From: Halorubellus sp. JP-L1
GTDB lineage: Archaea; Halobacteriota; Halobacteria; Halobacteriales; Natrialbaceae
Direction: 5' to 3'
NCBI RefSeq assembly: GCF_011440375.1
Contig: NZ_JAAOIR010000001.1
Coordinates: 868,001 to 932,000, forward strand
Length of the DNA stretch: 64,000 nt
The notes beneath the pieces were generated by a model, which worked only from the letters and a program-made list of their open reading frames with translations, had not been told where the DNA came from and searched no databases. A program made the translations under genes and the position numbers. Shown here in pieces: positions 3,402 to 54,298 of the stretch (the first letter of the stretch is position 1; each line of letters begins with the position of its first letter).

Positions 3402-3433
3402 ACCCGATGGAGGACGACCAGCCTGAAAACCCT

Positions 3434-3540
3434 ACTGACTCCGCGAGCAGACTACCGACTCCGCAAGCGTACGGCCGCCTCCAGGCGGCCGTTTCTCACA
3501 CCGACTCCGCAAGCATACAGCCGCCTCCAGGCGGCCGTTC
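3434..3540. repeat. Tandem repeat with two hairpins, probable terminator of the reductase gene
   Basis: CCGACTCCGCAAGC occurs twice (3455-3468 and 3501-3514), with a diverged third copy near 3436. Each of the two good copies is followed by a G+C hairpin, GCCGCC-TCCA-GGCGGC (arms within 3471-3492 and 3520-3535). The hairpins sit just past the stop codon of the minus-strand thioredoxin reductase gene. They look like a duplicated transcription terminator or 3'-end processing structure. Confidence 0.55.
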
Positions 3541-3565
3541 CTGTAACGTGAACCGCTTTGCGCCG

Positions 3566-10086: not shown

Positions 10087-11421
10087 TCAGGCCTCCAGTT
10101 CGCGCTCTCGTCCCTGCACGAGGGGGTTCTCTCGGACGATCGTCGCCTCGCGACCCGGGCCCACGCCGAGCGCGTAGATCGGCACGTCCAGTTCGTCGGC
10201 GACGTACTCCGCGTACGCCCTGGCGTTCTCGGGCAGCGCCCCGTAGCCCCCCTCGGCCACGGCAATCCAGTCCCGGTCGTCCCACGTCTCGAACCGCTCG
10301 AAACGGGGTTCGCAGCGGGTCCACTCGTCGGGCGAGGACGGAACGGTCTCGACGCGTTCGCCGTCTAGCTCGTACGCGTCGCAGACCACGAGTTCGTCGA
10401 GGCCCGCGAGCACGTCGAGGTGACTGAGCGTGATCGCGGTGAACCCGTTGACGCGAGCCGCGTGCCGCAACATCGGGAGGTCCAGCCAGCCGATCCGTCG
10501 CGGTCGCCCGGTGACCGTGCCGAACTCGCCCGCTCGCTCTCGGATCTCCGCGGCGACCTCGCCCTCGAACTCCGTCGGCATCGGGCCGGCCCCGACCCGG
10601 GAGAGATACGCCTTCACGACGCCGATTATCTCGCCATCAGCCACCGCCTGCGGCGGGACCCCCGAGCCGACGACCGCACCGCCCGCGGTCGGGTTCGACG
10701 ACGTCACGAACGGGTACCCGCCGTGGTCGCGGTCGAGGTGCGTTCCCTGCGCGCCCTCGAAGAGGACGGCGGCGTCCTCGCGCTCGGCGAGGAACGAGCT
10801 CGCGTCCACGACGAGGCCCTCGCGGTCGAGTCGCCGACCGTACGCGCGGAACTCCTCGAACAGCCCCTCCACGTCGAACTCGTCGCCGGTCTCGACGTCG
10901 TACGCGGCCTCGACGTACGCGCGCTTCCGCGAGACCACGTGCTCGAGGCGCGTTCGCAGCGCCTCCGCGTCCAGCAACTCGCCGACCCGGATTCCGTGAC
11001 GCCCGGCCTTGTCAGCGTACGCGGGCCCGATGCCGTTCCCCGTCGTCCCGACGGCGGTCGTCTCCTCGTCCCTCGCGGCCTCCTCCACGTCGTCGAGGAC
11101 GCGATGGTACGGGAGGACGACGTGCGCCCGGTCGGAGACGAGAACGTCCGGGTCCAGTCCCCGCTCGCGGAGGGCGTCGATCTCGGTGAACAGCGTGTCG
11201 AGGCCCACGACGCAGCCGTTGCCGACGACGCCCGTCTTCCCGCGGACGACGCCGCTCGGAACGAGGCGGAGCGCGTACTCCTCCCCGCCGACGGTGATCG
11301 TGTGCCCCGCGTTGTTCCCGCCCTGGAATCGAACCACGACGTCGGCGCCCTCGCCGAAGATATCGGTCATCCGTCCCTTCCCCTCGTCCCCGAACTGGGA
11401 ACCGATCACTGTCGCGTTCAC
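10087..11421 (-). CDS. purA: Adenylosuccinate synthetase
   Basis: This 444-residue enzyme catalyses GTP-dependent condensation of IMP with aspartate, the first committed step from IMP to AMP. Signatures are SQFGDEGKG (GDEGKG at 11-16, the phosphate loop), GGNNAGHT (34-41), the conserved GTTGNGIGPAYADKAGRHGIRV block near 123-145, FEGAQGTHLDRDHGGYPFVTSSNPT (about 218-242), and GRPRRIGWLDLPMLRHA (about 305-321). The start is a GTG at 11421, giving MNATVIGSQ, with a TATA-like GGTTAATG about 26 nt upstream, so it is probably leaderless. Length and motifs are ordinary for the family. Confidence 0.96.
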   Translation of the reverse strand: MNATVIGSQFGDEGKGRMTDIFGEGADVVVRFQGGNNAGHTITVGGEEYALRLVPSGVVRGKTGVVGNGCVVGLDTLFTEIDALRERGLDPDVLVSDRAHVVLPYHRVLDDVEEAARDEETTAVGTTGNGIGPAYADKAGRHGIRVGELLDAEALRTRLEHVVSRKRAYVEAAYDVETGDEFDVEGLFEEFRAYGRRLDREGLVVDASSFLAEREDAAVLFEGAQGTHLDRDHGGYPFVTSSNPTAGGAVVGSGVPPQAVADGEIIGVVKAYLSRVGAGPMPTEFEGEVAAEIRERAGEFGTVTGRPRRIGWLDLPMLRHAARVNGFTAITLSHLDVLAGLDELVVCDAYELDGERVETVPSSPDEWTRCEPRFERFETWDDRDWIAVAEGGYGALPENARAYAEYVADELDVPIYALGVGPGREATIVRENPLVQGRERELEA

Positions 11422-11444
11422 GGGACAGTCGACGGCAGGACGCT

Positions 11445-11452
11445 CATTAACC
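11445..11452 (-). promoter_or_regulatory. TATA-like element of purA
   Basis: GGTTAATG on the minus strand is centred about 26-27 nt upstream of the GTG start of purA. This supports both that start and a leaderless transcript. Confidence 0.5.
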
Positions 11453-11512
11453 GTTCTGTGAAGCGCGGTTCACAGCGACGGGGCGGAACCGGCACTCGAA
11501 TCCGTCGAGCGC

Positions 11513-12484
11513 TCAGAGCAGGCCGCTCGCGAGGACGTAGCGGACGCCCGCGGCGACGAGCGCCGCACCGCTGAGTGCGAGGACGGGCACGGAGACCACC
11601 GGGTCCTTGCGGGTCGTCCACGCCGCCCACGCGACGGGTGCGAGGAGGCCGACGCCGATCGCGACGTCGGGGAGCCGGTAGACGGTGCCGACCGCGTCCG
11701 GGAGGAGGTACATCGAGAACGTCCCGGCGAGGACGGGCCCGCCGACGGCCAGCAGCGCCGCCGTCCGGAGGTCGTCGCGTGCGAGGACGCTCGCGAGCGC
11801 GAGGCCGAGCAGTCCGACGGCGCTCGACGCGACGAGGAGCTCCCACGCCGACGGCCACGCCGGCCGTTCGCCGTAACAGCCGATGTCGGCGAAGACGGCG
11901 TGCGTGACGCCCGTGTACTGCCAGTTCGACGTGTACTCGAGGACGGTGCCGTCCTGGGCGAGCACGTAGTTCGCGTCGGGGCCGCGTTCGGCGTCGGTCG
12001 CGTCGCCGTACTGCTCTATCTCCCAGTCGACGGCGTCCTCTGGCGCGGCGGCTGCGCTCGGGTCATCGCCCTCGCGGACAGACGCAGCCGGGCTCTCGCC
12101 GCCCGTGAACGAGCCGTTCCGGTCGTACCTGTACGCGCGGTCGTCCGCTGTGAGGAGCCACCAGCCGTCCTCCGAGGGGACGAGTGCGGTCGCACGGAGC
12201 TCCTCGTCGTCGCCGGTCGCGTTCGCCGGCGGTTCGAGTTCGTACCGCGCGAGTTCGCGCCAGTCGGCGTCGTACCGGGCGACGACCGGCGGCGACCCAC
12301 CGTCGGTCTCACCGCCGCGGAGGACGAGCCATTGGCCGCGGACGTTCTGGTCGAGGTCCGCACCCTGGGGGCCGCCGCAGCCGTACCCGAGCCGTCCGGG
12401 GAACGCGGCGGGGACGGCCACGGCGAGGCTCACGATCGCGAGGACGGCGAGGAGGGCGGGGAGGCGGGACTCGGAGGGCAGCAT
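11513..12484 (-). CDS. Membrane-anchored protein with extracytoplasmic domain and four C-terminal membrane helices
   Basis: I do not recognise this 323-residue protein. It has an N-terminal hydrophobic segment (about 8-28, LLAVLAIVSLAVAVPAAF), then a soluble region (about 30-195) with Tyr/Trp-rich strands such as VVARYDADWRELARYEL and DRAYRYDRNGSFTGG. These read like beta-propeller or WD-type repeats. About four hydrophobic helices then span 200-322. The soluble part is probably extracellular. The start is the ATG at 12484, favoured because the preceding in-frame residues (PGPRRR) do not resemble a haloarchaeal N-terminus. An upstream ATG about 45 nt away is possible. Confidence 0.6.
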   Translation of the reverse strand: MLPSESRLPALLAVLAIVSLAVAVPAAFPGRLGYGCGGPQGADLDQNVRGQWLVLRGGETDGGSPPVVARYDADWRELARYELEPPANATGDDEELRATALVPSEDGWWLLTADDRAYRYDRNGSFTGGESPAASVREGDDPSAAAAPEDAVDWEIEQYGDATDAERGPDANYVLAQDGTVLEYTSNWQYTGVTHAVFADIGCYGERPAWPSAWELLVASSAVGLLGLALASVLARDDLRTAALLAVGGPVLAGTFSMYLLPDAVGTVYRLPDVAIGVGLLAPVAWAAWTTRKDPVVSVPVLALSGAALVAAGVRYVLASGLL

Positions 12485-39808: not shown

Positions 39809-41998
39809 TCAGCGAGGTGCGACGAGTTCGATCGGGTGCGGGGCGGGGCGGTCGAGGAGCGATTCCAGCTGGTCGACGCAGGACGTGCCGCTGGCGACGA
39901 CCTGGGTGGCGTCTGCGAAGTCCTCGGCGAGCGGTTCGCCGACGTCGACGCTGAGGTCGTAGTACTGTTCCTTGTACCCGAAGCTCCCCGCCATCCCGCA
40001 GCACTCGACGTCGCTCGTCTGGACGGTCGCGCCGAGTGTCTCGAGGACGGCGACGGTGTGCGCTTCGAGGCCGAGGGTGCGTTGCTGGCAGTGACTGTGG
40101 TAGGCGACGTCGCCGTCGAGTTCGGCGAGCACGTCCGCGCTGGCGCCGTTGTCGAGTCGGCCGTAGACGTACTCGCAGACCTCGTAGCTCGCGTCGGCGA
40201 GCGTGTCGGCGGCGTCGGCGTCGAGGAGACGTTCGTAGTCGTGGGCGAACATCGCGAGGTCGCTCGGTTCGACGACGACGACGTCGCGGCCGGCGTCGAC
40301 GTGCGGGGCGAGCGCGTCGCTGACGGCTTCGGCCTGCGAGCGCGCGGTCTCGATCATGCCCTGCGAGAGCGGCGCGCGCCCGGAGCCGGGGACGGCGGGG
40401 ACGCGGACGTGGACGTCGAGCGCCTCGAGCGCGCGGACGGCGGCCTTGCCGCGCTCGGGCGTGACGTGGTTCGTGTACGTGTCCGGGTAGAGGACCGCGC
40501 TCCGTGCGGCCTCGCCCTCGGGGACTGCGGGGCCGCCGCGGGCGTCGAACCAGTCGACGAGCGTCTCGCGCCGGAACGCCGGGAGGTCGCGGCGGCGGTC
40601 GACGCCGAGCACGCGCTCCATCGCGGCGCGAGCGGGCCGGGTGTCGGCGATCCAGTTCGAGACGGGCGCGAACGCGCTCCCGAGTCGCGCCAGCGCGTCG
40701 ACGTTCCCGAAGAACCGCTTCTGGAGGTCCAGACCAGCGGGTTCCTCGTCGGGCGTGAGGCCCTCGACGAGCGCGTCGAACTCGCCGGAGTCCGCGCCGC
40801 GATTGATGCGGTCGCGGACGACCGTGTTGATCCACGGGATGTCGATCTTCACCGGGCAGGCGTTCACGCACCGCGTACAGCCCGTGCAGAGGTCGTTGAA
40901 CTCCGCGGCGGCGTCCTCGCCCTCGACGCCGGCCTCCCAGCCGGTCGCGATGCCGCCCGTGTACGTCTCGCCGCCGAAGGCGTGCCCGCCGACCTGCTGG
41001 AAGTTCGCGCACGAGTTCGAGCACGCACCGCAGCGCACGCAGTACAGGGTCTCGCGGAGGTCGTCGTCCTCGCGCATGTCCATGCGGCCGTTGTCGAGCA
41101 GGACGAGGTGGAAGTCGCGGGCGTCCGCGGGAACGAACTCGTCGGCGTCGAAGTCCGGGATCGGCGTGTCGACGGGCGGCGTGAGCACGGAGACGTACTG
41201 ACTGATCGCCTGCCCGGTCGCAGCCCTCGAGAGCAGTCGGACGAACGGCTCGAGGTCCGCGACGGAGGGAACGAGCTTCTCGACGCCCGCGACCGCGACG
41301 TGCGTCTCCGGGGTCGCCGCACACTTCCGAGCGTTCCCCTCGTTCGTCACGAGCGCGATCGATCCCGAGTCGGCGGCGACGAAGTTCGCGCCCGTCATCC
41401 CGACGTCCGCCTCCCGGATCCTGTCGCCGAGGTAGTCGCGGACGAACGCCGTCATGTCCGCGGCGGACTCCAGGGGCTCGGCGGGCTCGAAGTGGTCGTT
41501 GAGGAGGTCCGCGATCTCCTCGCGGGACTTGTGCATCGCGGGCCCGACCAGATGGCTCGGGGACTCCTCGGCGAGCTGGACGACGAACTCGCCGAGGTCG
41601 GTCTCGTAGACGTCCACGCCCGCGTCGGCGAGCGCGTCGTTCACGTCTATCTCCTCGGTCGTCATCGACTTCGACTTCACGAGCGTCTCCGCCCCCGCGT
41701 CCGCGCAGACGGACTCGACGTACGCGTTCGCGTCCGCGGCGTCGTCGGCGACGTACACCGTTCCGCCGTTCGCCTCCACCGCCTCGGTGACCCGCTCGAC
41801 GAGGTCGGGGACGTTCGCGATCGCGTCCTCCTTGATCGCTCTCGCGCGCGACCGGAGGTCCTCGTACTCGGCGAGGTCCTCGGTCGCGGCGACCCGGCCC
41901 GCGTTCAGGTTCCGTGCCTGCGCCTCGATGTTCGGCCCCTCGGTGTCGAGGAGCGCACGAATCTTCGCCGCCGTCTCGCGCCTGGATTCCGAACTCAT
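39809..41998 (-). CDS. LutB-LutA fusion iron-sulfur protein (lactate oxidation)
   Basis: This 729-residue protein joins a LutB-like half (about 1-440) to a LutA-like half (about 470-729). The LutB half has a LUD domain (about 40-300; VTEAVEANGGTVYVADDAAD, GPAMHKSREEIADLLNDHF, GMTGANFVAADSGSIALVTN) and two 4Fe-4S motifs, CVRCGACSNSC and CTGCTRCVNACP. The LutA half has the CCG-type motifs HCQQRTLG and VECCGMAGSFG. In Bacillus these are separate subunits of an L-lactate dehydrogenase. Its ATG overlaps the LutC stop (ATGA). The two genes form the operon. Confidence 0.87.
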   Translation of the reverse strand: MSSESRRETAAKIRALLDTEGPNIEAQARNLNAGRVAATEDLAEYEDLRSRARAIKEDAIANVPDLVERVTEAVEANGGTVYVADDAADANAYVESVCADAGAETLVKSKSMTTEEIDVNDALADAGVDVYETDLGEFVVQLAEESPSHLVGPAMHKSREEIADLLNDHFEPAEPLESAADMTAFVRDYLGDRIREADVGMTGANFVAADSGSIALVTNEGNARKCAATPETHVAVAGVEKLVPSVADLEPFVRLLSRAATGQAISQYVSVLTPPVDTPIPDFDADEFVPADARDFHLVLLDNGRMDMREDDDLRETLYCVRCGACSNSCANFQQVGGHAFGGETYTGGIATGWEAGVEGEDAAAEFNDLCTGCTRCVNACPVKIDIPWINTVVRDRINRGADSGEFDALVEGLTPDEEPAGLDLQKRFFGNVDALARLGSAFAPVSNWIADTRPARAAMERVLGVDRRRDLPAFRRETLVDWFDARGGPAVPEGEAARSAVLYPDTYTNHVTPERGKAAVRALEALDVHVRVPAVPGSGRAPLSQGMIETARSQAEAVSDALAPHVDAGRDVVVVEPSDLAMFAHDYERLLDADAADTLADASYEVCEYVYGRLDNGASADVLAELDGDVAYHSHCQQRTLGLEAHTVAVLETLGATVQTSDVECCGMAGSFGYKEQYYDLSVDVGEPLAEDFADATQVVASGTSCVDQLESLLDRPAPHPIELVAPR

Positions 41999-42582
41999 GA
42001 GTCGATGACGACGACGTGTACTTCCGTGGGGCCGTGGACGCCCTCGACGAGCGCACCCATGTCCGCGGTCGCGCTCACGCCCGTCGCGACCACGTGCGAG
42101 TCGCGGCCGGCACCCGCCGCGTTCGCGTCCGGGTCGTCTCCGTCGGCGGTGGCGTCGTCGTCACCGTCGGCGTCCGCGTCGACCCTAGCCGCGACCTCGT
42201 CGTCGAGCCACGCCGTCGCCGTCGACACGTCCCCGACGACGTCATCGGCGCGAACGACCGCGACGTGCCGGTCCGGGTACAGCGAGACGAGTTCGTCGGC
42301 GTCGGCCGTCGACCGAACCAGCACCGACCCCGTCTCGGCGACGCCGAGGCGCCCGGGCGTGACGCCCGTCCGCGCCGCCTGCAGCGCCGCGGGCGCGAAC
42401 TCCCGCTCGACCGCCGCGGGAAGCGATACATCGACGTGCAACGCGACGCCGACCGCAGGCGGTTCGATAGCGCGCTCGATCGCGGCGGTCGCCTCGTCGA
42501 TACCGACGGTCTCGTGCGTCACGCCCGCGTCGTCGAGCGACGTCCGGAACGCATCCAAGTGGTCGATAGCTGAATCAGTCAT
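41995..42582 (-). CDS. LUD-domain protein, LutC-like
   Basis: This 195-residue LUD-domain protein completes the lactate oxidation complex with the LutB-LutA fusion. The domain covers most of the sequence. GRLGVAETGSVLVRSTADAD (about 76-95) and HVVATGVSATADMGALVEGVHGPTEVHVVVID at the C-terminus match the fold, with an Asp/Ala-rich loop (about 135-155) as a local insertion. The start is the ATG at 42582. It is the first gene of the operon; the catalytic iron-sulfur chemistry is in the partner. Confidence 0.84.
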   Translation of the reverse strand: MTDSAIDHLDAFRTSLDDAGVTHETVGIDEATAAIERAIEPPAVGVALHVDVSLPAAVEREFAPAALQAARTGVTPGRLGVAETGSVLVRSTADADELVSLYPDRHVAVVRADDVVGDVSTATAWLDDEVAARVDADADGDDDATADGDDPDANAAGAGRDSHVVATGVSATADMGALVEGVHGPTEVHVVVIDS

Positions 42583-42920: not shown

Positions 42921-43796
42921 TCAGACGTCGGTCGCGAGGACGGCCCCGTTTGCAGTGTCGACCTCGATCACCGGCCCCGACGACGTTCTCACCAAGAGGC
43001 GACCGTCGAGGAACCAGATGGACGTCACGCGGCCGGACTCATCCGGGAGTGAGTCCATCCACCAGTCGACCTCGCAGTCCCGCGTGAGACGCAGCACGTT
43101 CCCCTCCACACGCCTATTCTCGATATCGGATTCCCCAACGAGAGCCACGAGTCCGTCGTCGTGCGGGAATGCCGACGAAATCCCTGCAGGTAACTCGAGC
43201 ATCCCTGCTTCCTCGTTCGATATCCGGCCCTCGTAGTCGACCTCGAAGGCAGTTCCCGGCACCCGGCGCACTCCAGACCGGCGGTCCCCGCCCGACGACT
43301 CATCAGCTCGACCGGCGGAACCGGAGTGGCTCGGCTCTTCAGTGGCCGCACGTTTCTCGGCTATCTCTGCCCGAGTGATCTCCGTCTCGCTGAGCGTGAG
43401 CGCTTCGTCGTACTCCAGAACGATGCACGCCTGGAGGTCGGATTCGGGTAGTAACCCGTCCCCACGAACGTGTTCCGCCCAGGACCGATGCAGGAAGTCG
43501 AGCCCGACGTATCCAACCGACTGGGCGGTGTCAGGGTCGCTGAGGGCCAGTTCCGGTCCTTCGACCGCCGCGTTCAGCACTGCCGTCGAGTAGTGGTCGC
43601 CAACTGTCTCGCTCACGTCGAACCCCGCATCTGAAACAGTCACCGAAATATAATACCGGGCCTCCGGATCGTAGCGGCCGAGATACGGGACGATCGAGTT
43701 CAGGAAGTCGAACGACCCACATTCGGCAGTCCAGAACCGCCTGAAGTCACCGTGAGTTTGCTCAAGCCACCCCAGAGTGCGTACCTCTATCCGCAT
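42921..43796 (-). CDS. Unknown protein, possible partner of the C-terminal hydrolase domain
   Basis: I do not recognise this 291-residue soluble protein. Its N-terminal region (about 1-110) is aromatic and alpha/beta (GDFRRFWTAECGSFDFLNSI, YYISVTVSDAGFDV). A polar linker follows (about 140-175). The C-terminal half is a strand-rich region like one or two beta-propeller blades (GRVTSIWFLDGRLLVRTSSG then PVIEVDTANGAVLATDV). There is no signal peptide or membrane segment, so it is probably cytoplasmic. Its start lies 35 nt inside the end of the giant gene, so translation is coupled. Immediately after its stop comes the remnant. The placement suits an immunity or chaperone protein, which is inference. 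Confidence 0.7.
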   Translation of the reverse strand: MRIEVRTLGWLEQTHGDFRRFWTAECGSFDFLNSIVPYLGRYDPEARYYISVTVSDAGFDVSETVGDHYSTAVLNAAVEGPELALSDPDTAQSVGYVGLDFLHRSWAEHVRGDGLLPESDLQACIVLEYDEALTLSETEITRAEIAEKRAATEEPSHSGSAGRADESSGGDRRSGVRRVPGTAFEVDYEGRISNEEAGMLELPAGISSAFPHDDGLVALVGESDIENRRVEGNVLRLTRDCEVDWWMDSLPDESGRVTSIWFLDGRLLVRTSSGPVIEVDTANGAVLATDV

Positions 43797-46700
43797 ACTT
43801 CACTCTGCTCGGCCATACTACTTGATGCTGGTCCTGAACGAGATAGATCGCCTCCTCGTCGTCTCCGCAGGGATACGGGAGCCTTTCCCGGAGTGCACTC
43901 GGCGCCGTCTCGCCATCCATCGGTCCGACAACCGGACCGAAGACGCCAGTGACGAACGTGACGTCTTCGTGAACGGCCGTCCAATAGACGGGAATGTCCG
44001 CTACTTCCGCCCTGTCGAAGACGCCACAATCCGGTGCGAACTCTTGATTACGGCGTCTCCTGTTACTGTTCGAGATGACGATGCTCTTGGGCGTGGTCGC
44101 AGCAAGTAATTCCTCACTGACGACCGTTTCGCCCTCCGCGCTCGTCCCGTGATGCGATGCTTGGAGTACGTCTACGTCCGCCAGATACTGCTCCTCAACC
44201 AGAGCTTGCTCCTGGTCTTGACGTATGTCTCCAGTCGTCAAGACGGTGAAATCCTCGTAGATCACTTTCATGACGACCGATTTCTCGTCGACGTCACCCG
44301 TACCTTCCGGCCTGAGTACTCTTGCAGTGGCGTCCCCGAAACGTATCGAGTCCCCCGCTCGGAGGATTTCCGTGGACGCCTCCCCATCGAGCGCTTCGGC
44401 AATGTCCGCTTCAGTACCGCTCCCGGTCGACGACCCCGAGAAGTGCACGTTCTCGATATCGAAGTCGTTCTCCTCGTCCTCGAGTAGGTCGTCTATCAGG
44501 TTCAGGTGATCCGAGTGATTGTGCGAGACGACGAGGTGATCGATGGTGTGATCCTCACCGTCCATCTCCGCTGCGAGAGTGTTCGAGAGGTCGTCCTCGT
44601 ACCGGGCGGGAGCGTTCGCGCCGGCATCGACGAGCATCGTTTCCGTTTCTCCGTCTTTCGATTGGTACTCGAAGAGTACGCTATCCCCTTTCCCCAGATC
44701 AATGAACGTTACGTCGAAGTGCTCGTCTGGACAGCCGTCCGTTTCATCCTCGTCGTCGTCGTCCGCTGGTCGGACGCGCACCTGTTCGACGTCGCTGAAC
44801 ACGTGCTTGCCAGCGTCACCGGCCACGTTGACGCTGGCGCGGACCTTGTTGTCGTCGTCCTCGTCCGGGAGGTCGCACGCGCTCGTCTCGAAGTCGTCGT
44901 CATCGCCGAACGCGAGGTCGATCATGTCGTCGCCGTCGCCACTGAGTGCACCGATGAGGAGTTCCTCGTTACTGGCGGTGGTGCCGCCGTCGTTCGGGAT
45001 GTTCGCGCACTTCGAGGGATCTTGCTTCTCCGGACTGAACCCGGGGCCGACGTACGGCCACGTCACCGAGCACTCCGTCAGCTCGTGCTTCGTCGCACCG
45101 GGCTTCTCGCTGACCCGGTCACCAGCGCCGAGACTCCCGTACGGCATCACCGTCCCACCCGGTGTCGCGAGCACGACCGACGTCATGCTCGAGAAGTTGA
45201 CCGCTTCGACCCGACCGACCCGATGCCGGAGCCCGTTGATCTCGAGATGCACGGGCTGGGGTTGCCGGACGTACGTCGTCGCACTTTCAGCACTCGGCCC
45301 GCCAGTGCGCGCACTCGCCGCGAACCGCGCGTACTCGCCATTCACGCGGACGTTCACGTTGTTCACGGAGACGTACCAGAAGCTCGGCCACGGCACGACC
45401 GGCGCGCCCGGATTCGGGAGCAATGCATTGTTCCGGGCCGCCATCGACGCGTGGAACGTGTTCTCCGGATCACTGACGGTCTCACCCCGTGGCCGCACCT
45501 CCGGAACCGTATTCCGCGTCACCGGTGACAGACTCAGGTACGACGGCGCGGTCTCGACGCGGAACGTCACGTCGTCGTACACGTCTGAGTTCCCGATCTC
45601 GCCGGGCGGCGACGTTCCGACCAGGTCCGGCGCATCCTCGAGCGCGCCGTTCGCGAACTGGAGCCCATCCGTGAGCGCGTTCTCCGTTCCCTCGACCGAA
45701 TCGGAGAGATTCTGGTTCACGTTCCCGCGAGCGTCGTTCCGGCGGCTCTCGACCTCGTCCATCCACCGACGCATCTGGCGAACGTACACGAGCCGTAACT
45801 CCGCGCGAGCCTTCTCCGTGATCGTGTCGTAGCCCGTCCGCGAATCCCGGTACACGATCGCGTCCCGCCGGTCCCTGAGTCGCTGTTTGAGCGTCGAGAA
45901 CACGTCGTCGTCCGTCGCCATGTCCATCCGAGAGACCTCCATCGTCGCCCAATCCGCGGTCGAACTGTTCACGCGGTCGTTCGTCTCCGTGATCTCTGCC
46001 CGCAGCCAATCCCTGACCTCCCCGCGCTCCCCGTCCTCGAACAGCTCACTGGGACCGAGGACGATCTTGTCGTCGTCGTTGACGACCTTCGACCGCAGGG
46101 CCCCCTCGCCGTGAACGTCCTCCGGCGAGATGTCCTCCAGCTCCGACTCGACGGAACTCGCGCCTCCGACCGAAAGGACCGTCGTGAGCGCTCGCTCAGG
46201 GACGTCGTCGAAGTACCGCGGTGGCCGGCCGTCTGCGTCCGAAGGCCCACCCTCGTAGATGTTCGACACGCCCTTGTCGGCGATGATGGACCGCTCGCTG
46301 TGGTTTGCCTTCGTGGTGACCTCCACCTCGTACGTGACCGAGGACGTCGACTCCCGCGTCTCGGTCGGGCCCAGGTCCTCCGGGCCGTCGTACTCCCACA
46401 CCTTCGTCCGCTTGTACGACTTCTCCACCGTGACCGCGACCGTGTGGAGGTCCTGCCACGAACTGTCCGCGCTACCGTCCATCCTCGAGCGCTTCTCGAC
46501 GGAGATGGACTTGTCCGTCCGGACCTTGTTGTCGCTGTCGACGCTCCAGTTCTCCGAATCCTCGAACGACGGCGTGGTGACGGTGGGGTTCTCACTTCCG
46601 CTCGAGGACGTCCTGACGTCAGATCCGATGTCGACCTCGTACGTCCGGTCGATGATGTTGTCGAGAACGTCCGTCTCGAAGTTCGAGTCCGGCATCTCCA

Positions 46701-48036
46701 TCTCGTTGTCGCCGGAGACGGCGTCCTTGTCGCTGTTCGGTGGTTCCTGACTGTCACCAGCTCCGTCCTCCGACCAATCCTGATCGTTCTGTTTCCACTC
46801 GTAGCTCCGACTGAGCACCCAGTTGTAGGACGGGTTCGAGAAGTTGCGGATGTGGACCGTCGTTTGCTTGTTCAACTGGTCGCGTGCCTCTCCAGCCATC
46901 CCGCCACCCCCGATCTCATCGAGGAGTTCGGTGAGGCTCTTGCGTTCGCCGCTGGGGCCGCCGACGATGAACTGGGTCGCTCGGCACAGGTCCTTCGGGC
47001 TCGACTCGACGTACCTGTCCTTCATCTTCTTCTTCAGGTCGAAGAGCTTCCCGCCGGTGCGCGCGAACAGGCAAGTCCAGGCACCGGCCATCGCGTTCCT
47101 CGCACCTTCGTCGCTCGTCCCGAAGACGTTCTTCTGAACGCCGTAGACGGCATCGTTCGCGAAGATCTCCGCCTCGTAGTTCTCGACCATGCTCGGGAAG
47201 TCCGCTTCGGCATCCTTGACTGGGGCAAACGTCGATTCCTTGTTTACCCGCTCGTAGTACGCCTTCGCGTAGGCGAGCGGGTATATCCGGGCCGCGAACT
47301 GGCGTCCGAACCCGTTCATGCCGTCCGCCTCGAAGAACCCCATGTCGAGTCGCTTCTCGTACTTCACGGTCCGGTTGTGGAGTGCGAACGCGGTGCTCGG
47401 GACCGTGAGCGAGATCTCTCGCGTCCGCGTGTCCTTCGTCCCATCCTCCCTGATTGCGGTGACGGAGACGTCCTCGACCGTCACCTCGACCTCGCCCGTC
47501 TCCACGTCGTCCTCGTCGGACTCGATTCCGGCGGTGAGTTCCACGCGATCGATCGCGGCCTCGAGTTCCTCCTGCGAGTAACTGACGTCCGGCGTCGAAC
47601 TCACGGTCCGGACGTCGCCCTGGAACGTCTGCCCGGTCGAAGCCAGCTGCTCCTGCACGGCGAGGTAGATTCGGAGCTTGACGTACCGCCGGAAGACGTG
47701 CCGGTCGTACTCGTACGAATCATCGTCCATCCCAGCGGACCCGGCGTCGAACGCTTCGCCGGCTGGACCGTCGGAGGGCTCCGTCACCGGCTTCCTGGCT
47801 GCCTTCTTCAACGCCTGCTTCGCAGCACTCTGAACGGCCGTTCTAGAGAGGGCCTCGGTCTGTCGGAGCGCCTCCGCCGTCGACGTGGACTGTTCGGCCG
47901 TCGACTCCGGCTGGGTTTGCTTGACGGCGACGACCGCGACGCTACTCACAAGGAGCAGGACGCCGATGATGGCGAACGGCACGCGCGCGCTGTCGTCCGA
48001 TGCGATAGTGATGGTGTTCCGGCGGCGTTTACTCAT
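43762..48036 (-). CDS. Giant pilus-locus membrane protein (DUF7286-like) with a C-terminal ComEC-like MBL domain
   Basis: This 1424-residue protein has a basic N-terminus (MSKRRRNTIT), one membrane helix (about 19-40, VPFAIIGVLLLVSSVAVVAV) and a long extracytoplasmic region (about 45-1030) with coiled-coil-like helices and beta segments. It resembles the large protein I know as DUF7286 in this haloarchaeal locus. After an acidic linker (about 1030-1105) comes a metallo-beta-lactamase domain with DLGKGDS (1113-1119), LVDAGAN, HNHSDH (1172-1177), VLTTGDI and SHHGTS (1294-1299). These are the ComEC/Rec2 hydrolase motifs. The gene runs without interruption, overlaps the next gene by 35 nt and follows the pilin-like genes. 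The exported hydrolase could act on nucleic acid; that is inference. Confidence 0.85.
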   Translation of the reverse strand: MSKRRRNTITIASDDSARVPFAIIGVLLLVSSVAVVAVKQTQPESTAEQSTSTAEALRQTEALSRTAVQSAAKQALKKAARKPVTEPSDGPAGEAFDAGSAGMDDDSYEYDRHVFRRYVKLRIYLAVQEQLASTGQTFQGDVRTVSSTPDVSYSQEELEAAIDRVELTAGIESDEDDVETGEVEVTVEDVSVTAIREDGTKDTRTREISLTVPSTAFALHNRTVKYEKRLDMGFFEADGMNGFGRQFAARIYPLAYAKAYYERVNKESTFAPVKDAEADFPSMVENYEAEIFANDAVYGVQKNVFGTSDEGARNAMAGAWTCLFARTGGKLFDLKKKMKDRYVESSPKDLCRATQFIVGGPSGERKSLTELLDEIGGGGMAGEARDQLNKQTTVHIRNFSNPSYNWVLSRSYEWKQNDQDWSEDGAGDSQEPPNSDKDAVSGDNEMEMPDSNFETDVLDNIIDRTYEVDIGSDVRTSSSGSENPTVTTPSFEDSENWSVDSDNKVRTDKSISVEKRSRMDGSADSSWQDLHTVAVTVEKSYKRTKVWEYDGPEDLGPTETRESTSSVTYEVEVTTKANHSERSIIADKGVSNIYEGGPSDADGRPPRYFDDVPERALTTVLSVGGASSVESELEDISPEDVHGEGALRSKVVNDDDKIVLGPSELFEDGERGEVRDWLRAEITETNDRVNSSTADWATMEVSRMDMATDDDVFSTLKQRLRDRRDAIVYRDSRTGYDTITEKARAELRLVYVRQMRRWMDEVESRRNDARGNVNQNLSDSVEGTENALTDGLQFANGALEDAPDLVGTSPPGEIGNSDVYDDVTFRVETAPSYLSLSPVTRNTVPEVRPRGETVSDPENTFHASMAARNNALLPNPGAPVVPWPSFWYVSVNNVNVRVNGEYARFAASARTGGPSAESATTYVRQPQPVHLEINGLRHRVGRVEAVNFSSMTSVVLATPGGTVMPYGSLGAGDRVSEKPGATKHELTECSVTWPYVGPGFSPEKQDPSKCANIPNDGGTTASNEELLIGALSGDGDDMIDLAFGDDDDFETSACDLPDEDDDNKVRASVNVAGDAGKHVFSDVEQVRVRPADDDDEDETDGCPDEHFDVTFIDLGKGDSVLFEYQSKDGETETMLVDAGANAPARYEDDLSNTLAAEMDGEDHTIDHLVVSHNHSDHLNLIDDLLEDEENDFDIENVHFSGSSTGSGTEADIAEALDGEASTEILRAGDSIRFGDATARVLRPEGTGDVDEKSVVMKVIYEDFTVLTTGDIRQDQEQALVEEQYLADVDVLQASHHGTSAEGETVVSEELLAATTPKSIVISNSNRRRRNQEFAPDCGVFDRAEVADIPVYWTAVHEDVTFVTGVFGPVVGPMDGETAPSALRERLPYPCGDDEEAIYLVQDQHQVVWPSRVKYADRGTHSGVA

Positions 48037-48085: not shown

Positions 48086-49045
48086 TCACCACGTTCGGAC
48101 GACGACGACGACGTGTCCGGTCTGAATGGCGTCCGCGAGCGTCTGCCCGGTCACGGTATCCATCTCGTCGAAGTACTTGTCGTCGAGCTCTTCGAGGACG
48201 ATCTCTTCGAGCTCGTCGACGACCTCCTCGTTCGCTTGCGCTGCGTCTGCGACGTCGCGCTCGTACACTGGTGCACCGTACGGCCCAGTCGAATACTTGA
48301 AACTGCTCGTCTCGGGGTACGACTGCAGGATATTTCGCATCCGTTTGTACCGGTATCGGGCGAGTGACCCCTGGAAGCCGCGTTTCTCGATGGCGAGCTG
48401 CGTGGCTGTCGGTGGGAACTGCCCGTCGACGATGGTTTCGGCGACGAGGGTGGCGACGGCCCGTTTCCCACCTCGATCGTACGCTCGCTCGATGCGGGCG
48501 TCGGTCAGCCGGTCCATGCCGCTGTCGACGCGGATCGTCGTGGTACTGACGTCGGCGTCGCCGGGCGGGGTGGGCCCCGCTTCGATGCGACCTTGGATGT
48601 CCGACCGGTTGTACGGCCGCCAGAGTGCAACGACGTGCGCGTTCTCGTTCGTGCCGGTGACGCGCTCGTTTACGCCCGCTTCGACGGCTTCGACGTACGG
48701 CTCGCTCCCCTCGTTGAGGGGAGTGCGGTCGCCAGGGGTGTCGAACGTAACGCTTCGGACGGTGGCGTCCGCCACGAGTTCGACTGCAGTGCCGTGATTC
48801 CGTCGGCTGTACTCGTAGTACTCCTCGTCCTCGAACTGGTCACTGTTCTCGAGCGACTCGAGCGAGTACTCGGCGGTGATGGTGGTCGCGGAGAGCGTCT
48901 GTGCGAGTTCGTCGGGGTTTCGGGTCTCAGTGGGTTGATCGTCCTCGCCGAGGAAGACGACCATCGTCGCGATCGATGCGGTGACGAGGAGGAGTGCGAG
49001 TGCGACGTCGACGACCGTACTCACCGCTCTGTTCTCGGGTCTCAT
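48086..49045 (-). CDS. Pilin-like membrane protein (DUF7284-like)
   Basis: This 319-residue protein has an archaeal pilin-like N-terminus (MRPENRAVSTVVDVALALLL, hydrophobic helix about 11-32) and a long, acidic extracytoplasmic part. The later part has helices rich in charge (RIERAYDRGGKRAVATLVAE, EEVVDELEEIVLEELDDKYF). It fits the family I recall as DUF7284, encoded between DUF7285- and DUF7286-like genes. Its ATG at 49045 overlaps the stop of the upstream gene (ATGA), which excludes the GTG nine bases further up. It may be a minor pilin or a structural part of the machine. Confidence 0.78.
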   Translation of the reverse strand: MRPENRAVSTVVDVALALLLVTASIATMVVFLGEDDQPTETRNPDELAQTLSATTITAEYSLESLENSDQFEDEEYYEYSRRNHGTAVELVADATVRSVTFDTPGDRTPLNEGSEPYVEAVEAGVNERVTGTNENAHVVALWRPYNRSDIQGRIEAGPTPPGDADVSTTTIRVDSGMDRLTDARIERAYDRGGKRAVATLVAETIVDGQFPPTATQLAIEKRGFQGSLARYRYKRMRNILQSYPETSSFKYSTGPYGAPVYERDVADAAQANEEVVDELEEIVLEELDDKYFDEMDTVTGQTLADAIQTGHVVVVVRTW

Positions 49046-49518
49046 TTGCGCCACACCACCACGTTGAGGCGGGCGCTCCGCACCCGCCCGTCGTCGGTCT
49101 GATAGGGGATCGAGCGGCTCGCGAAGTCCGCAACGCCGACGAGGTCGGAGACGGTTACCGAACTCGCATCGTCACTCGACCCGTACAGCGCTTCCTCCTC
49201 TTGCTCCCAGCCGCTGTCTTCGAGGACAGTGACGTTCACGTACACGTTGTACTGGGTCGGGATTGCGGAGTCCGGGAGGGTCGTGGCCGCAAGTTCGCCC
49301 TCCGTGTAGACCGAGTCCTCACCGATAGTGTGCCAGACGTTCTGGAGCGTCGGTTCGCTCACGTCCCGATCCGTTCGCGTGTCCATCACGTCCGTGAAGA
49401 ACCCGCCGTAGACGCCGATCGCGAGTGCGATCGTCGAGATGGCGATGAGTGCGGCGAGCGGTTCGGTCTGGCCGCGGGTCGTTCCGTCAGGCGAGTACGA
49501 GAATGACAGAGTAATCAC
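49042..49518 (-). CDS. Pilin-like membrane protein (DUF7285-like)
   Basis: This 158-residue protein has RGQTEPLAALIAISTIALAI (about 15-34), which looks like a pilin/class III signal followed by one hydrophobic helix. An extracytoplasmic beta-rich domain follows (about 50-158, QYNVYVNVTVLEDSGW and RVRSARLNVVVWRK). I associate it with DUF7285. Translation starts with GTG at 49518, which overlaps the upstream gene's end by 32 nt; no ATG is available in frame. It is part of the five-gene operon starting at 49975. Confidence 0.75.
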   Translation of the reverse strand: MITLSFSYSPDGTTRGQTEPLAALIAISTIALAIGVYGGFFTDVMDTRTDRDVSEPTLQNVWHTIGEDSVYTEGELAATTLPDSAIPTQYNVYVNVTVLEDSGWEQEEEALYGSSDDASSVTVSDLVGVADFASRSIPYQTDDGRVRSARLNVVVWRK

Positions 49519-49975
49519 CCCAAGTTACCTTGCGTACTTCGAGCGTCCCGCTCGCGGACGTGAACACGCGTCCGTCCGCATCGCGGACGTGGCCCTGTGC
49601 GGCCTCGACGGCGGCCTCGAACGCGGCCTGGTCTGCGAAGACGTCCTTCGGCGAATCGCCGTGGACGACGGCGGCCAGATCCTCGTCCGGCCAGGCCGGT
49701 GCCATGGTCCCGAACCGGACGAGTGCGCGGGACGTCCCACCGTCGTTCTTCAGGACGACGGTGTCTCGGTTCACCCAGTAGCGGTCGGCGTCGTGTTCGT
49801 ATCGAGCGGTGCCGCCGTACGGTTGTGCGCCGACCTTGTCGATCGTGTTCGCGACGCCGTTCGCGTTCGGTGGTGGCGTCGAGGGGATCGAGAGCGCCAG
49901 CCCCATCGCTGCGATACTGAAGATGGCGACGCCGATGAAGACGTACCATCCGTCGGCGGGCGCCTCGAAGTCCAT
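49487..49975 (-). CDS. Pilin-like membrane protein (DUF7283-like)
   Basis: This 162-residue protein starts MDFEAPADGWYVFIGVAIFS, with one N-terminal membrane helix (about 10-32), PSTPPPNANGVANTIDKVG, then a small extracytoplasmic domain that ends in a hydrophobic strand (VTWGDYSVILVLA). It fits what I recall as DUF7283. It is the first gene of the operon DUF7283-DUF7285-DUF7284-DUF7286/MBL-partner. A TTTAAA element (50000-50005) is centred 27 nt upstream of the ATG. The domain could be a minor pilin or assembly factor. Confidence 0.76.
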   Translation of the reverse strand: MDFEAPADGWYVFIGVAIFSIAAMGLALSIPSTPPPNANGVANTIDKVGAQPYGGTARYEHDADRYWVNRDTVVLKNDGGTSRALVRFGTMAPAWPDEDLAAVVHGDSPKDVFADQAAFEAAVEAAQGHVRDADGRVFTSASGTLEVRKVTWGDYSVILVLA

Positions 49976-50095: not shown

Positions 50096-51895
50096 TCAAC
50101 CGATGAGGCCGTTCGTGAGGAGGAACGTCCCCGTGAACAACAGCATCGCGGTGAACAGCGCCTTCCCGACTGCGCACCCGACGAGCGTCCGGTCGAGTCC
50201 GTGCTTGAGACCGACCGAGAGCGTCGTCAAGATGACGGACATCATGAGGACGTACGCGCCGACGACGATGGCCAGGCTCTCCGTCGGGAACGCCACAGTG
50301 GCTTGCGAACTCGCCGCGCCCGCCGAGTTCGCCGCCTGCCCCGCCGCGTCCACGCTCCCGGATGCGACCTCCGCACTACCCGACATCGACAGGCTCGCAC
50401 CTTGACTCCGCGATTCGATGACCTTACTCAGTGCGATGGTCGCACCGGCGATGATCGGCCCGAAGAACGACGCCGTCTGATCGAGCGTTCCCGTCACCAT
50501 CGAGAGCTGTCGTTTCGCCTCCCGCTCGACCTCCTGGAGTTCCTCCAGGTGGTCCGCCATCGCGACCACCGCCCGGCCCGCTGGCTTCCCCTCGTTCGAC
50601 GCGATAGACAGCAGCGCTGCCGTCCCGTTCGCTCGCGGACTCGGAACGTCGTTGAGCGCGCCGTACGCTCCGTTGAACGCCTCGTCGACGTCGACGTGCA
50701 GTCGACGTTGCACGCCCGCAGCCTGCTCGAACAGGTCGCCGGTCTCGGCCGGGACCTTGTCCGCGGCCTGCTCTAGGCCCGCTTCGACCGATTCGCCCTC
50801 CGACACCTGTCGGCCGACGAGGTAGAGCGCGTCCACGAGGTGCTTCTCGATGGCGCGAACGTGATCGCCGACCGACTTGATCGGCTTGAAGTAGAGGTAG
50901 AGTGCGACTCCCGGCCCGATCCCCAGTGCCACGATCGGTGCCAGGTACCCGACGGCGAACGCCTGCACGCTCGCGAACGCGGCCGCTGCGGACCCGCCGG
51001 CGGCGAGCGCGATGAGCGCGAGGTTCTGATTCACGTCCGGATGGGAGCGAGTGACTTGCGGCGGCGGGAACGCAGCGGGTCGCCGCTGCAGTAACCACAC
51101 GCTCGTCACCACGAGCATCGTCGGCAGGAGGACGTCGTAGAGCAGGACGTACGCGCCGATACCCGGCCGGATGTCCGCCATACGCATCGCGGGGAGGAGC
51201 GCGACGAGCGCCAGCGGGAGCATCACGCCGAACGCGTAGAGCGCAGTCGTCGGGCCACGGATCTGCTCGGTGAAGTCCGCCATCTGCTCGCGAGTCCCGG
51301 TGAGCACGGCGTGCAGCGACCGTTCGAGCGTCCGGCCGCGTTCGCCCTCCGGTGCGTCTTCGGCGGTGGAGAGCAAGTGCGCGGACCGGCGAAGTGCCGG
51401 GAACTCCTCCGCCCATTCGTCCGCGAACGAGAGCAGTCCGGATTCGGCCGTGCCGAGGGACTGATCGATGTGCGCCTGCAGGCTCTTCGCGAGCGGCCCG
51501 TACCCCGTCTCCGCCGCGAACCGAATCGCCGTCTCAGTCGAGGGCTGGATCTGCATCCGGAGGACCGCCCGCCCGATGAGGTCGGGCGTCTCACCGAGCG
51601 CTCGCGTTCGCCGGAACGCGGCGAGGAGACGCGGGAACGAGTGAACGACCTGGATCGCGCCGAGAGCGGCAATGAACGAGAACAGGAACACGCCCCAGAG
51701 GGGAATCGGGAGCGCCAGCAGCGGAAGGACCACCAGCAGCGTCACGATGCCGGCACCGTAGCCGCTCCGGACGACGGTTCTCGCGTCCACGGGCGACTCG
51801 ACGAACGCCAGCGATTCGATCAGCTCCTGGCTCGCTTCGACCTCGTATGGGTACAGTTTCGCGAGGAACCGGACGGTGCGCTCCGTTCCGGACAT
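50096..51895 (-). CDS. PilC/TadC-type (type II secretion system F) membrane protein
   Basis: This 599-residue integral membrane protein forms the platform that couples the PilB ATPase to pilin extraction. It has two T2SSF domains (about 60-200 and about 380-520) and about eight to nine membrane helices, including YGAGIVTLLVVLPLLALPIP, LVALLPAMRMA and SLAIVVGAYVLMMSVILTTL. SGTRxxxMADF-like cytoplasmic loops are visible. The gene starts three bases after the PilB stop, so the two are coupled. Length is typical for the double-domain archaeal form. Confidence 0.88.
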   Translation of the reverse strand: MSGTERTVRFLAKLYPYEVEASQELIESLAFVESPVDARTVVRSGYGAGIVTLLVVLPLLALPIPLWGVFLFSFIAALGAIQVVHSFPRLLAAFRRTRALGETPDLIGRAVLRMQIQPSTETAIRFAAETGYGPLAKSLQAHIDQSLGTAESGLLSFADEWAEEFPALRRSAHLLSTAEDAPEGERGRTLERSLHAVLTGTREQMADFTEQIRGPTTALYAFGVMLPLALVALLPAMRMADIRPGIGAYVLLYDVLLPTMLVVTSVWLLQRRPAAFPPPQVTRSHPDVNQNLALIALAAGGSAAAAFASVQAFAVGYLAPIVALGIGPGVALYLYFKPIKSVGDHVRAIEKHLVDALYLVGRQVSEGESVEAGLEQAADKVPAETGDLFEQAAGVQRRLHVDVDEAFNGAYGALNDVPSPRANGTAALLSIASNEGKPAGRAVVAMADHLEELQEVEREAKRQLSMVTGTLDQTASFFGPIIAGATIALSKVIESRSQGASLSMSGSAEVASGSVDAAGQAANSAGAASSQATVAFPTESLAIVVGAYVLMMSVILTTLSVGLKHGLDRTLVGCAVGKALFTAMLLFTGTFLLTNGLIG

Positions 51896-51898
51896 CGG

Positions 51899-53830
51899 TC
51901 ACTGACCTCGCGTCGCGTACGCGGCAGCGACCTCGGACGGAGCGGTCCGCCTGTCCGCGGCGATGTCCTCGAGTTCCGCGGCGCGTTCGGCGACGTCGGC
52001 GCGGAGGTCCGCGTACGACTCCGCCGGACCCGTCAACCGGTTCAGGAACCGGCTCTTCCCGCGGTCCACGCGGTCCGTCGACACCGCCTGGTCACCGTCG
52101 ATCTCGTAGAGCGGCGCGAACCGGATACCGTCGTCGTCCACGATCACCTCCTCGATCGCGGAAAGCCGTCGTTTCCGGCCGTCGGGCGTCCTGTACGCTT
52201 GCACGGTCACGACGAGGTCGGTCGCGCCGAACGACGACGGCTCGACGCCGAGGTCGGAGACGACGCGTTCGTACACGTCCTCCGCGCCGTCCCCGTGAAT
52301 CGTCCCGAGCACCGCGTTCGCGTTCGCACCGACGCGCATCGCCTCGTACAGCACCTCCGCTTCCTCGCCGCGGATCTCGCCGACGACGAGCGCCCCGTCA
52401 CCGAGCCGGAGCGCCGTCCGGAGTGCATCCGCCGCAGTGATCTCCGGACCGTCTCCCGTCCCCGTCCGGAGCGCCTGCACGTCCCGATCGACGTTCTGGA
52501 GTTGCGTGACCGGCAGTTCGGGCGTGTCCTCGATGACGACCGTTCGCGTATCCGGCGTCAGCTCGTACAGGAGCGTTCCGAGCAGCGTCGTCTTCCCCGC
52601 ACCACGAGTCCCCGCGATGAGTGCCGCGGCGTTCCGCTGGATCGCCACCGACAGGAACGCCGCCGCTTCCGACGGCATCGTTCCGTTCGCGACGAGCTCG
52701 GGGAGCGTGAACCGGTCCTCGGCCTGTTCGCGGAAGGCGAACGCCGTCCCTTCGGCGACCGGGGATTTCACGCCCGCGACGCGGACGCCGGTCCCACGGT
52801 CCAGCGTCGCCGTCGCGTCGACGGTCGGCTGCGCGCGAGAGAACGCACGCCCGCTTATCTTCCGGATGCGGGACGCGAGCGCACCGCCACCCTCCGGCGT
52901 CAGGTGAACGTTCGTCGTCATCGACTGCCCGTCGACCACGACCCGGAGCGGGTTCTCGCCGACGGGGGACGTCACGTACACGTCCGTGACTCGCGGATCC
53001 GCGAAGAGGTCCTCGAGGATGCCGTACCCTTGCGTGTGCTTCGAGACGACCGCAGCGAGGCGCGGTTCCACCGATTCGTCCGTCACGTACTCCAGCGCGC
53101 GAGACGCCGCCCGCTCACCCGTCACTTTCCCGTTCGCGATCGCTTCGTAGCATTCGAGCAGGAGCGTCCGTTGTTTCGCCGACAGCGACGTGTCCACGAC
53201 GTCGACCGCGTACAGCGGAACGCTGTTCGGGCGTTCGTACACGCGGGCTTCGCTCCCGGTGTCGAGGGACTCCATGTCCTCGAGCCTCGCACCGTCGTCG
53301 ATGGATTGCCGGACGAAGTAGTGCCCGACGCTCAACCCGACCCCGGGGTCGAGTGCGGCTTCGAGGCTCTCGATGCCGTCCGCCGCACGCGTCAGCCCGG
53401 ACTGGCGACCGATCTCAGCGATCGGCCCGACGCGCGTCTCGATCCGTTCCGCGACGGCGAGCGGGTCGACTTGCACGAGCTCCGCGAGCCGTTCGTCGCG
53501 GTTCTCGACGAGCCGGTGGAATTCGGCAGCGGCGGAGAGCACCCGCACGCCATCGCCAGCGTATCGATGCTGGAGGCCCTGTGACTCGACGAAGATGCGC
53601 TCGATGGACCGCTCGGTCATCCCCGAGATGGCCGTTCGGCGACAGGCGTCCGCGGTCGCGAGGTCGCCGTCGCAATCGCTCGCGTCCACGTGCGCCGTCG
53701 TGCCGTCTATGGAGACCGTGCACGCACAGTCCGCGGCCGAATCGGACGACCCGAACCAGTCCGCGACCGCGTTCAGGCCCAAGCGTTCGAGCATCGACGA
53801 ATCGTCAGAAGCGTTCTCTTCCTCGCTCAT
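51899..53830 (-). CDS. PilB/GspE-type secretion ATPase
   Basis: This 643-residue hexameric ATPase powers pilus or secretion subunit assembly. An N-terminal region (about 1-110) has scattered cysteines (DCACTV, DASDCDGD, DACRRTAI). Then come an N2 domain (about 200-370) and the RecA-like core with Walker A GTRGAGKTT (407-415), VVIEDTPELPVTQLQNV (Asp box, about 435-451), Walker B-like ALVVGEIRGEEAEVLYEAM (about 480-498) and the His box LGTIHGDGAEDVYERV. It is the third gene of the operon DUF7310-DUF7311-PilB-PilC. The motifs are intact. Confidence 0.9.
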   Translation of the reverse strand: MSEEENASDDSSMLERLGLNAVADWFGSSDSAADCACTVSIDGTTAHVDASDCDGDLATADACRRTAISGMTERSIERIFVESQGLQHRYAGDGVRVLSAAAEFHRLVENRDERLAELVQVDPLAVAERIETRVGPIAEIGRQSGLTRAADGIESLEAALDPGVGLSVGHYFVRQSIDDGARLEDMESLDTGSEARVYERPNSVPLYAVDVVDTSLSAKQRTLLLECYEAIANGKVTGERAASRALEYVTDESVEPRLAAVVSKHTQGYGILEDLFADPRVTDVYVTSPVGENPLRVVVDGQSMTTNVHLTPEGGGALASRIRKISGRAFSRAQPTVDATATLDRGTGVRVAGVKSPVAEGTAFAFREQAEDRFTLPELVANGTMPSEAAAFLSVAIQRNAAALIAGTRGAGKTTLLGTLLYELTPDTRTVVIEDTPELPVTQLQNVDRDVQALRTGTGDGPEITAADALRTALRLGDGALVVGEIRGEEAEVLYEAMRVGANANAVLGTIHGDGAEDVYERVVSDLGVEPSSFGATDLVVTVQAYRTPDGRKRRLSAIEEVIVDDDGIRFAPLYEIDGDQAVSTDRVDRGKSRFLNRLTGPAESYADLRADVAERAAELEDIAADRRTAPSEVAAAYATRGQ

Positions 53831-53839
53831 GGATGTCGA

Positions 53840-54298
53840 TCAGAGGCGTTCGATGACGACGACCGGATAGCCCTCGTCGGGGTGGCGTTCCAGCGTCAAC
53901 CGGAACCGGTGTTCGCCGGTTATCTGTCCGTACTCGATGCTCCCGTAGTCCGGGCCGACCAGCGGCGCTTCGACGTGAACGACCTTCGTCTGCCGGCCGT
54001 CGACGCTGTACCTGATGACGGTGTGGTTCGTCGCGACCGGTTCGATGGTGAACGACGAGACCGGGTCGAGGGTCAGGCCGTCGGTCGGGAGCGACACCGA
54101 GACGAGTCGACGCGGGCCGGTCACTCCCTCCGGCGGTGCGTCCTCGGCGACGTACAGGGACTTCGCCGCGTGTTCGATCTCGGCGGCCGTCGCTTCCGCC
54201 TGTTGGTCGCCGCGCGCTCCGGCGGCCTGGTCGATGGCCGGCACTGCGACCGCGAACAGCGCGACCGTGATGAGGACGGCGAGGATCGTCCGGATCAC
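53840..54298 (-). CDS. Small membrane protein (DUF7311-like)
   Basis: This 152-residue protein has one N-terminal membrane helix (about 3-22, RTILAVLITVALFAVAVPAI) and a beta-rich extracytoplasmic domain (about 55-152). I associate it with DUF7311, found beside pilB in haloarchaea. It starts with GTG at 54298, overlapping the stop of the coiled-coil gene (GTGA). It may be a pilin-like or assembly protein. Its gene sits directly before pilB. Confidence 0.75.
   Translation of the reverse strand: MIRTILAVLITVALFAVAVPAIDQAAGARGDQQAEATAAEIEHAAKSLYVAEDAPPEGVTGPRRLVSVSLPTDGLTLDPVSSFTIEPVATNHTVIRYSVDGRQTKVVHVEAPLVGPDYGSIEYGQITGEHRFRLTLERHPDEGYPVVVIERL

Follow-up and report, generated by a model that had tools for sequence, protein, structure and literature searches.

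A ComEC-type metallo-beta-lactamase domain behind a DUF7286 pilus-locus protein of Halorubellus sp. JP-L1: a probable polymorphic toxin with a putative immunity gene

We analyzed a 64-kb window of contig NZ_JAAOIR010000001.1 of Halorubellus sp. JP-L1 (all coordinates below are window positions), centering on the gene P0001 and on P0002, the smaller gene that overlaps its end. P0001 combines DUF7286, a protein family of Tad/type IV pilus-like systems, with a C-terminal metallo-beta-lactamase (MBL) domain of the ComEC type. We consider it probable that P0001 is a polymorphic toxin with DUF7286 as carrier and the MBL domain as warhead, and that P0002 is the corresponding immunity protein. The analysis presented here provided the domain identities, a shared junction site, swapping of cassettes and linkage to a partner gene; domains and cassettes were assigned by homology and by which genes are linked. 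The two genes were divided as follows:

45007..48036, minus strand: P0001 residues 1–1010, DUF7286 carrier (PF23957, E 6.5e-127); relatives in the family stop about here
44725..45006, minus strand: P0001 residues 1011–1104, acidic linker after the junction; a similar junction and linker occur on contig C3 of genome G053
43867..44724, minus strand: P0001 residues 1105–1390, ComEC-type MBL domain, putative toxin (TIGR00361, 9vc6/9ic4, AlphaFold/Foldseek, motifs)
42921..43796, minus strand: P0002, 291 residues, putative cognate immunity protein; start overlaps the end of P0001, homologues found behind MBL domains

P0001 is one open frame of 1424 residues on the minus strand (43762–48036), confirming the product given in a preliminary description of this DNA, which had also predicted a single membrane helix; the helix was found near residues 15–42. 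The carrier part has a pilin-like N-terminus, a large, presumably exposed part and a conserved '...TWPYVGPGF' junction near residue 1010. The Pfam DUF7286 match covers residues 14–872, and a further DUF7286 stretch downstream corresponds to profile positions 896–983. Past the linker, the motifs DLGKGDS (1113), HNHSDH (1172) and SHHGTS (1294) were found where they had been described, together with an additional TTGD at 1267.

On the strength of these motifs, the preliminary description had assigned the C-terminus to the ComEC/Rec2 MBL domains and proposed a structural check, and both the sequence and the predicted fold turned out to resemble ComEC. Residues 1107–1344 matched TIGR00361 (ComEC_Rec2) with E 1.9e-14, and the domain matched the solved ComEC structure 9vc6 with E 6.6e-10. 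An AlphaFold model built from a 17-row alignment had a predicted template modeling score (pTM) of 0.82, and when this model was compared with the PDB by Foldseek, the top match was Moorella ComEC (9ic4, E 6e-17), in its beta-lactamase-like domain, and the second was CbpE/Pce, a surface phosphorylcholine esterase. P0001 thus shares the MBL fold and the metal-site motifs with ComEC/Rec2 (9ic4, 9vc6; PMC8579336), but differs in being fused to DUF7286, in having a partner gene and in lacking the membrane channel (Competence) domain, with its one helix and no PF03772 match. Motif II of ComEC/Rec2 also contains an Asp, where P0001 has HNHSDH. ComEC MBL domains are Mn-dependent nucleases, and because the ComEC domain has both nuclease and phosphodiesterase activity (PMC8579336), the P0001 domain would by analogy most likely have one of these activities and depend on a metal for it.

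The junction is shared with other members of the family, and what lies behind it is variable. The window genome has a second DUF7286 gene, ordinary in form, and an MBL query against the same genome matched only the domain fused in P0001. We then compared how about 113 other DUF7286 proteins end, and found a bimodal distribution of C-termini: nearly all end at most about 55 residues past a conserved 'TWxxxGPxF'-like junction and lack a C-terminal MBL, a comparison that the preliminary description had suggested. The sequence past the junction is about 410 residues long in P0001, 368 in genome G058, 372 in G161, 457 in G300 and 514 in G458. The extensions in G058 (locus L162) and G161 (L255) contain a domain unrelated to MBL, here called type B, with 35% mutual identity, while the Haloarcula-group copies in G300 and G458 have a third domain, type C, in common. 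MBL, type B and type C all lie behind the junction, and this position therefore accepts different domains; unrelated C-terminal domains behind one conserved junction are a feature of polymorphic toxins. The type C carriers (L228 on G300:C3 and L232 on G458:C1) are DUF7286 genes of a second type, with homologous extensions of 457–514 residues. In a sister genome (G239), a DUF7286 gene (L100, 4986–8624) continues in frame into a DUF5791 domain; the matching stretch in the window genome (L099) is apparently in another frame, which may reflect a fusion or a sequencing frameshift. An ordinary, lineage-wide fusion was rejected for P0001, since DUF7286 and MBL matches fall in separate genes in the sampled relatives of the family and class, and an origin by fusion of adjacent genes was rejected as well, since the stand-alone MBL genes of the relatives do not lie beside DUF7286.

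The overlapping P0002 gene had been overlooked in the preliminary description, whose sequence observations on P0001 itself were borne out. A tblastn search with P0002 found relatives behind the nearest MBL relatives of P0001, in L095 (26% identity, E 1.8e-10) and in L096, where two tandem copies follow the MBL, and a profile search added partner genes behind the MBL in L097, L161 and L127. P0002 homologues thus lie directly downstream of MBLs of the P0001 subfamily in five loci besides the window. Type B domains, too, are followed by the C-terminal domain of P0002: L162 (E 5e-20), L167 and L168 gave the clearer matches, and L255, L118, L120, L121, L122 and L124 weaker ones. For L255 the match is weak (E 0.07), but the locus has the layout and position seen in L162. 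Counting the window, a matched partner gene lies downstream of the MBL in six loci and downstream of type B in at least four, as is typical of polymorphic toxins. The partner was present at 4/4 large MBL fusions (L065, L066, L067 and L076) and at none of 26 stand-alone haloarchaeal MBL genes, a split that random placement among the 30 loci would produce by chance once in 27405.

Neither P0002 nor its homologues have a membrane segment. P0002 matched no family in Pfam, NCBIfam or PADLOC, and the type B partners weakly matched PQQ-like blade repeats. Four loci (L163, L164, L165 and L171) contain genes for the N-terminal domain of the partner and no adjacent MBL or type B, with two nearby copies each in L164 and L171; these are possible orphan immunity genes. 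At L158, L159, L169 and L170, the large open reading frames beside partner-type genes are masked by Ns, and their C-terminal domains were not readable. In L098 and L102, a small gene with 'DDGTYTAVVDSIEDGLA' follows a stand-alone secreted MBL and looks like a different, conserved partner. No relatives turned up when viral contigs were scanned with the alignments of the partner and of the MBL.

The nearest MBL relatives of P0001 are not pilus proteins, but the C-terminal ends of secreted surface proteins. The L095 protein, encoded on the Haloarcula taiwanensis plasmid pNYT1 among mostly 'hypothetical' genes, has 1461 residues; its N-terminus is signal-like, dockerin, TSP3 repeats and vWA follow, and the MBL forms the C-terminal end. 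The L097 protein (2524 residues) combines TSP3 repeats with MBL, and L167 encodes a vWA/TSP3 protein ending in type B. Both cassettes, MBL with partner and type B with partner, therefore occur on two carriers that are unrelated to each other, DUF7286 and secreted vWA/TSP3/dockerin proteins. In L095, L096 and L127, a 100-residue segment preceding the MBL is 88–95% identical, whereas the adjoining MBLs are only 29–49% identical, the pattern of a conserved pre-toxin region with exchanged warheads. When a tree was built from 56 MBL domains, those linked to a partner grouped together and were split from all stand-alone haloarchaeal rows with support of 100/97; one long-branched planctomycete row sits among them. 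In L096, a gene at 10842–11834, probably a transposase and repeated at 3225–4217 of the locus, separates two parts of a vWA/TSP3–MBL gene. A profile scan of genome contigs with the MBL alignment found only bacterial ComEC-like genes, and PADLOC matches to RTasMBL/LmuA were set aside as probably due to the shared MBL fold.

A cassette of the P0001 type may also have been displaced. Contig C3 of G053 starts with broken MBL and partner genes, and at its other end, apart from any called DUF7286 gene, reads 'VGPGFTPNKQDPS...NVPNGGG...ELLLAGASGD', close to the corresponding junction and linker of P0001, 'VGPGFSPEKQDPSKCANIPNDGG...ELLIGALSGD'. The pieces, which were read separately, look like a displaced cassette of the kind found in the window.

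We favor the polymorphic toxin interpretation because it accounts for the variable C-terminal enzyme, the fixed junction, the downstream partner, the tandem and orphan partners, the displaced cassettes and the sharing of carriers. Polymorphic toxins, including CdiA/CdiI (Zhang et al. 2012, PMC3482391), place a variable enzyme at the C-terminus, past a conserved carrier and pre-toxin junction, and likewise show a downstream partner gene, tandem and orphan partners, displaced cassettes and carrier exchange. P0001 differs in its carrier, an archaeal pilus-locus protein; the text consulted mentions no pilus, pilin or lactamase, and reports that beta-propeller domains had not been found among immunity proteins. 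A precedent within the haloarchaea is the contractile injection system, for which toxin/immunity pairs have been shown experimentally in Haloferax volcanii (PMC11566945). These likewise comprise haloarchaeal toxins with downstream immunity genes, and the toxins are toxic alone in H. volcanii; they differ in being delivered by a contractile, phage-tail-like machine with no pilus protein. By analogy with these pairs of another delivery system, toxicity and neutralization can be inferred for P0001 and P0002.

In the mechanism that we propose, the pilus machinery would carry DUF7286 to the cell surface or the pilus tip, and on contact with a related cell, the C-terminal domain that follows the GPGF junction would enter that cell. 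Inside the target cell, the MBL would cut DNA or another phosphodiester unless P0002 were present, P0002 being a cytosolic protein that would guard the producer and its kin. Catalysis, toxicity, immunity and pilus delivery are what we infer. Delivery by the pilus is the weakest step, since DUF7286 could instead simply display the enzyme. The preliminary description had envisaged a machine that presents or exports a nucleic-acid-acting hydrolase; a pilus-locus protein with a ComEC-like, probably nucleic-acid-acting hydrolase is indeed what was found, and export comes close to delivery of a toxin. The broader proposal, in which the Tad/type IV pilus is a contact-dependent delivery device, DUF7286 a general carrier of swappable toxins (MBL nuclease, TNT-like and others) and the partners immunity proteins of a new family that has a PQQ-like blade domain, is tentative, and we rate it at slightly under an even chance.

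Several observations weigh against the toxin interpretation. The fusion of MBL to DUF7286 was seen once among several hundred genomes. No small partner gene lies behind the two Haloarcula-group type C extensions, the next gene being a ParA/MinD-like ATPase on the opposite strand, and the toxin model therefore does not cover all DUF7286 extensions. P0002 resembles no known immunity family, and its single-sequence AlphaFold model, with a predicted local distance difference test score (pLDDT) of 45, was not good enough to search for similar folds. In P0002 homologues, the C-terminal half goes with several toxin types, as that of an adaptor also would. Type B of L167 matched PF14021 (TNT, NAD-cleaving toxins) below significance (E 0.094), the match was absent from the type B domains of G058 and G161, and type B had no match among PDB profiles; at most, the sequences hint at a faint TNT/NADase-like character. 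The MBL of L095 has HNDTDH instead of HxHxDH, but an Asp at this motif is usual in active ComEC domains (PMC8579336), and HNDTDH resembles that form. Finally, the proposed place of DUF7286 at the pilus tip is drawn from an analogy with TadG/PilY-like proteins.

The most serious alternative, which we nevertheless regard as unlikely, is that P0001 displays an MBL phosphodiesterase on the cell surface that degrades extracellular DNA or surface polymers, serving nutrition, biofilm release or defense, with P0002 as a chaperone or assembly factor. Stand-alone secreted MBLs of the superfamily are common in haloarchaea, with a match in 262/391 genomes; some are fused to a thermonuclease, a homologue of a Haloferax DNA-metabolism protein (PMC3929857), and the second-best PDB match of the P0001 domain, CbpE/Pce, is itself a surface enzyme. 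The common haloarchaeal 'ComEC' proteins are such secreted MBLs without a channel (PMC3929857). These COG2333 proteins, annotated as 'ComEC/Rec2 family competence protein', share with P0001 a ComEC-type MBL, extracellular in their case and predicted to be so in P0001, but they are small stand-alone genes, have no P0002-type partner and lie in another part of the tree. A display enzyme would also leave unexplained why unrelated domains with P0002-like partners occupy the same carrier position, why some partner genes are tandem copies and others orphans, and why the pre-toxin segment is conserved while the MBL is swapped.

DNA uptake by a competence-like apparatus of pilus and ComEC-type nuclease, which the preliminary description had raised, is very improbable. 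In bacteria, the ComEC MBL is thought to degrade the non-transforming strand (PMC8579336), and P0001 does sit in a pilus operon. However, the ComEC channel PF03772 is absent from the genome, although the same search found it in 10/14 control genomes; the fusion does not occur in relatives with the same pilus locus, and the MBL subfamily is an exchangeable C-terminal end, with a partner gene, whose nearest relatives terminate secreted surface proteins. Equally improbable is a chance fusion or assembly artefact, in which neighboring genes were joined by a lost stop codon into a functionless protein: the fusion was found once in the sampled genomes and most related DUF7286 proteins have no domain at that place, but the 1424-residue frame is open, the catalytic motifs are intact, the partner gene overlaps, G058 and G161 independently show this layout, and in G053 a contig with an MBL cassette also carries a junction and linker resembling those of P0001.

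The type IV pilus-like operon noted in the preliminary description was confirmed. P0001 has the neighbors that define a DUF7286 pilus locus, namely DUF7283, DUF7284 and DUF7285 and a TadA-type ATPase, and all pilus genes lie upstream of it in the same direction:

48086..49054, minus strand: DUF7284 pilin-like protein (PF23955, E 3.6e-79)
49042..49518, minus strand: DUF7285 pilin-like protein (PF23956, E 7.3e-26)
49487..49975, minus strand: DUF7283 pilin-like protein (PF23954, E 4.5e-48)
50096..51895, minus strand: multi-pass membrane protein in the TadC position, assigned by position and hydrophobic segments (no match in a Pfam search; same position in L101, L162 and L099)
51899..53830, minus strand: TadA/VirB11-type secretion ATPase (PF00437, E 5.4e-23; TIGR03819 TadA family)
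53840..54298, minus strand: small protein whose N-terminus includes a hydrophobic segment, encoded upstream of the ATPase; a look-alike is at the same place in L101

The operon is of the kind surveyed in archaea (PMC4858521), sharing with the PilB4-type/Tad-like loci a VirB11-type ATPase, a protein in the TadC position and several pilin-like proteins; that census makes no mention of toxins. DUF7286 was not mentioned in the literature searched. On the other side of P0001, after P0002, a LUD-domain gene and a gene for a 729-residue protein (39809–42582) look unrelated, of the lactate-utilization type.

The logic of polymorphic toxins is already known; what appears new is the type IV pilus-locus carrier, the ComEC-type MBL warhead and the partner family. 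None of these three was found in the literature searched, and haloarchaeal vWA/TSP3 or pilus-linked toxins may already be described. To our knowledge, only a small number of mechanisms for attacks between archaea are known, and our results suggest that these haloarchaea may use pili to attack neighboring cells. If this is true, a pilus system common in haloarchaea would also serve to carry weapons, the known toxin domains would come to include the ComEC-type MBL fold and P0002 would found a new immunity family. DUF7286, DUF7283–7285 and many 'hypothetical' genes of haloarchaeal plasmids would gain a testable role, and archaeal 'ComEC/competence' annotations should be taken as evidence of DNA uptake only with caution.
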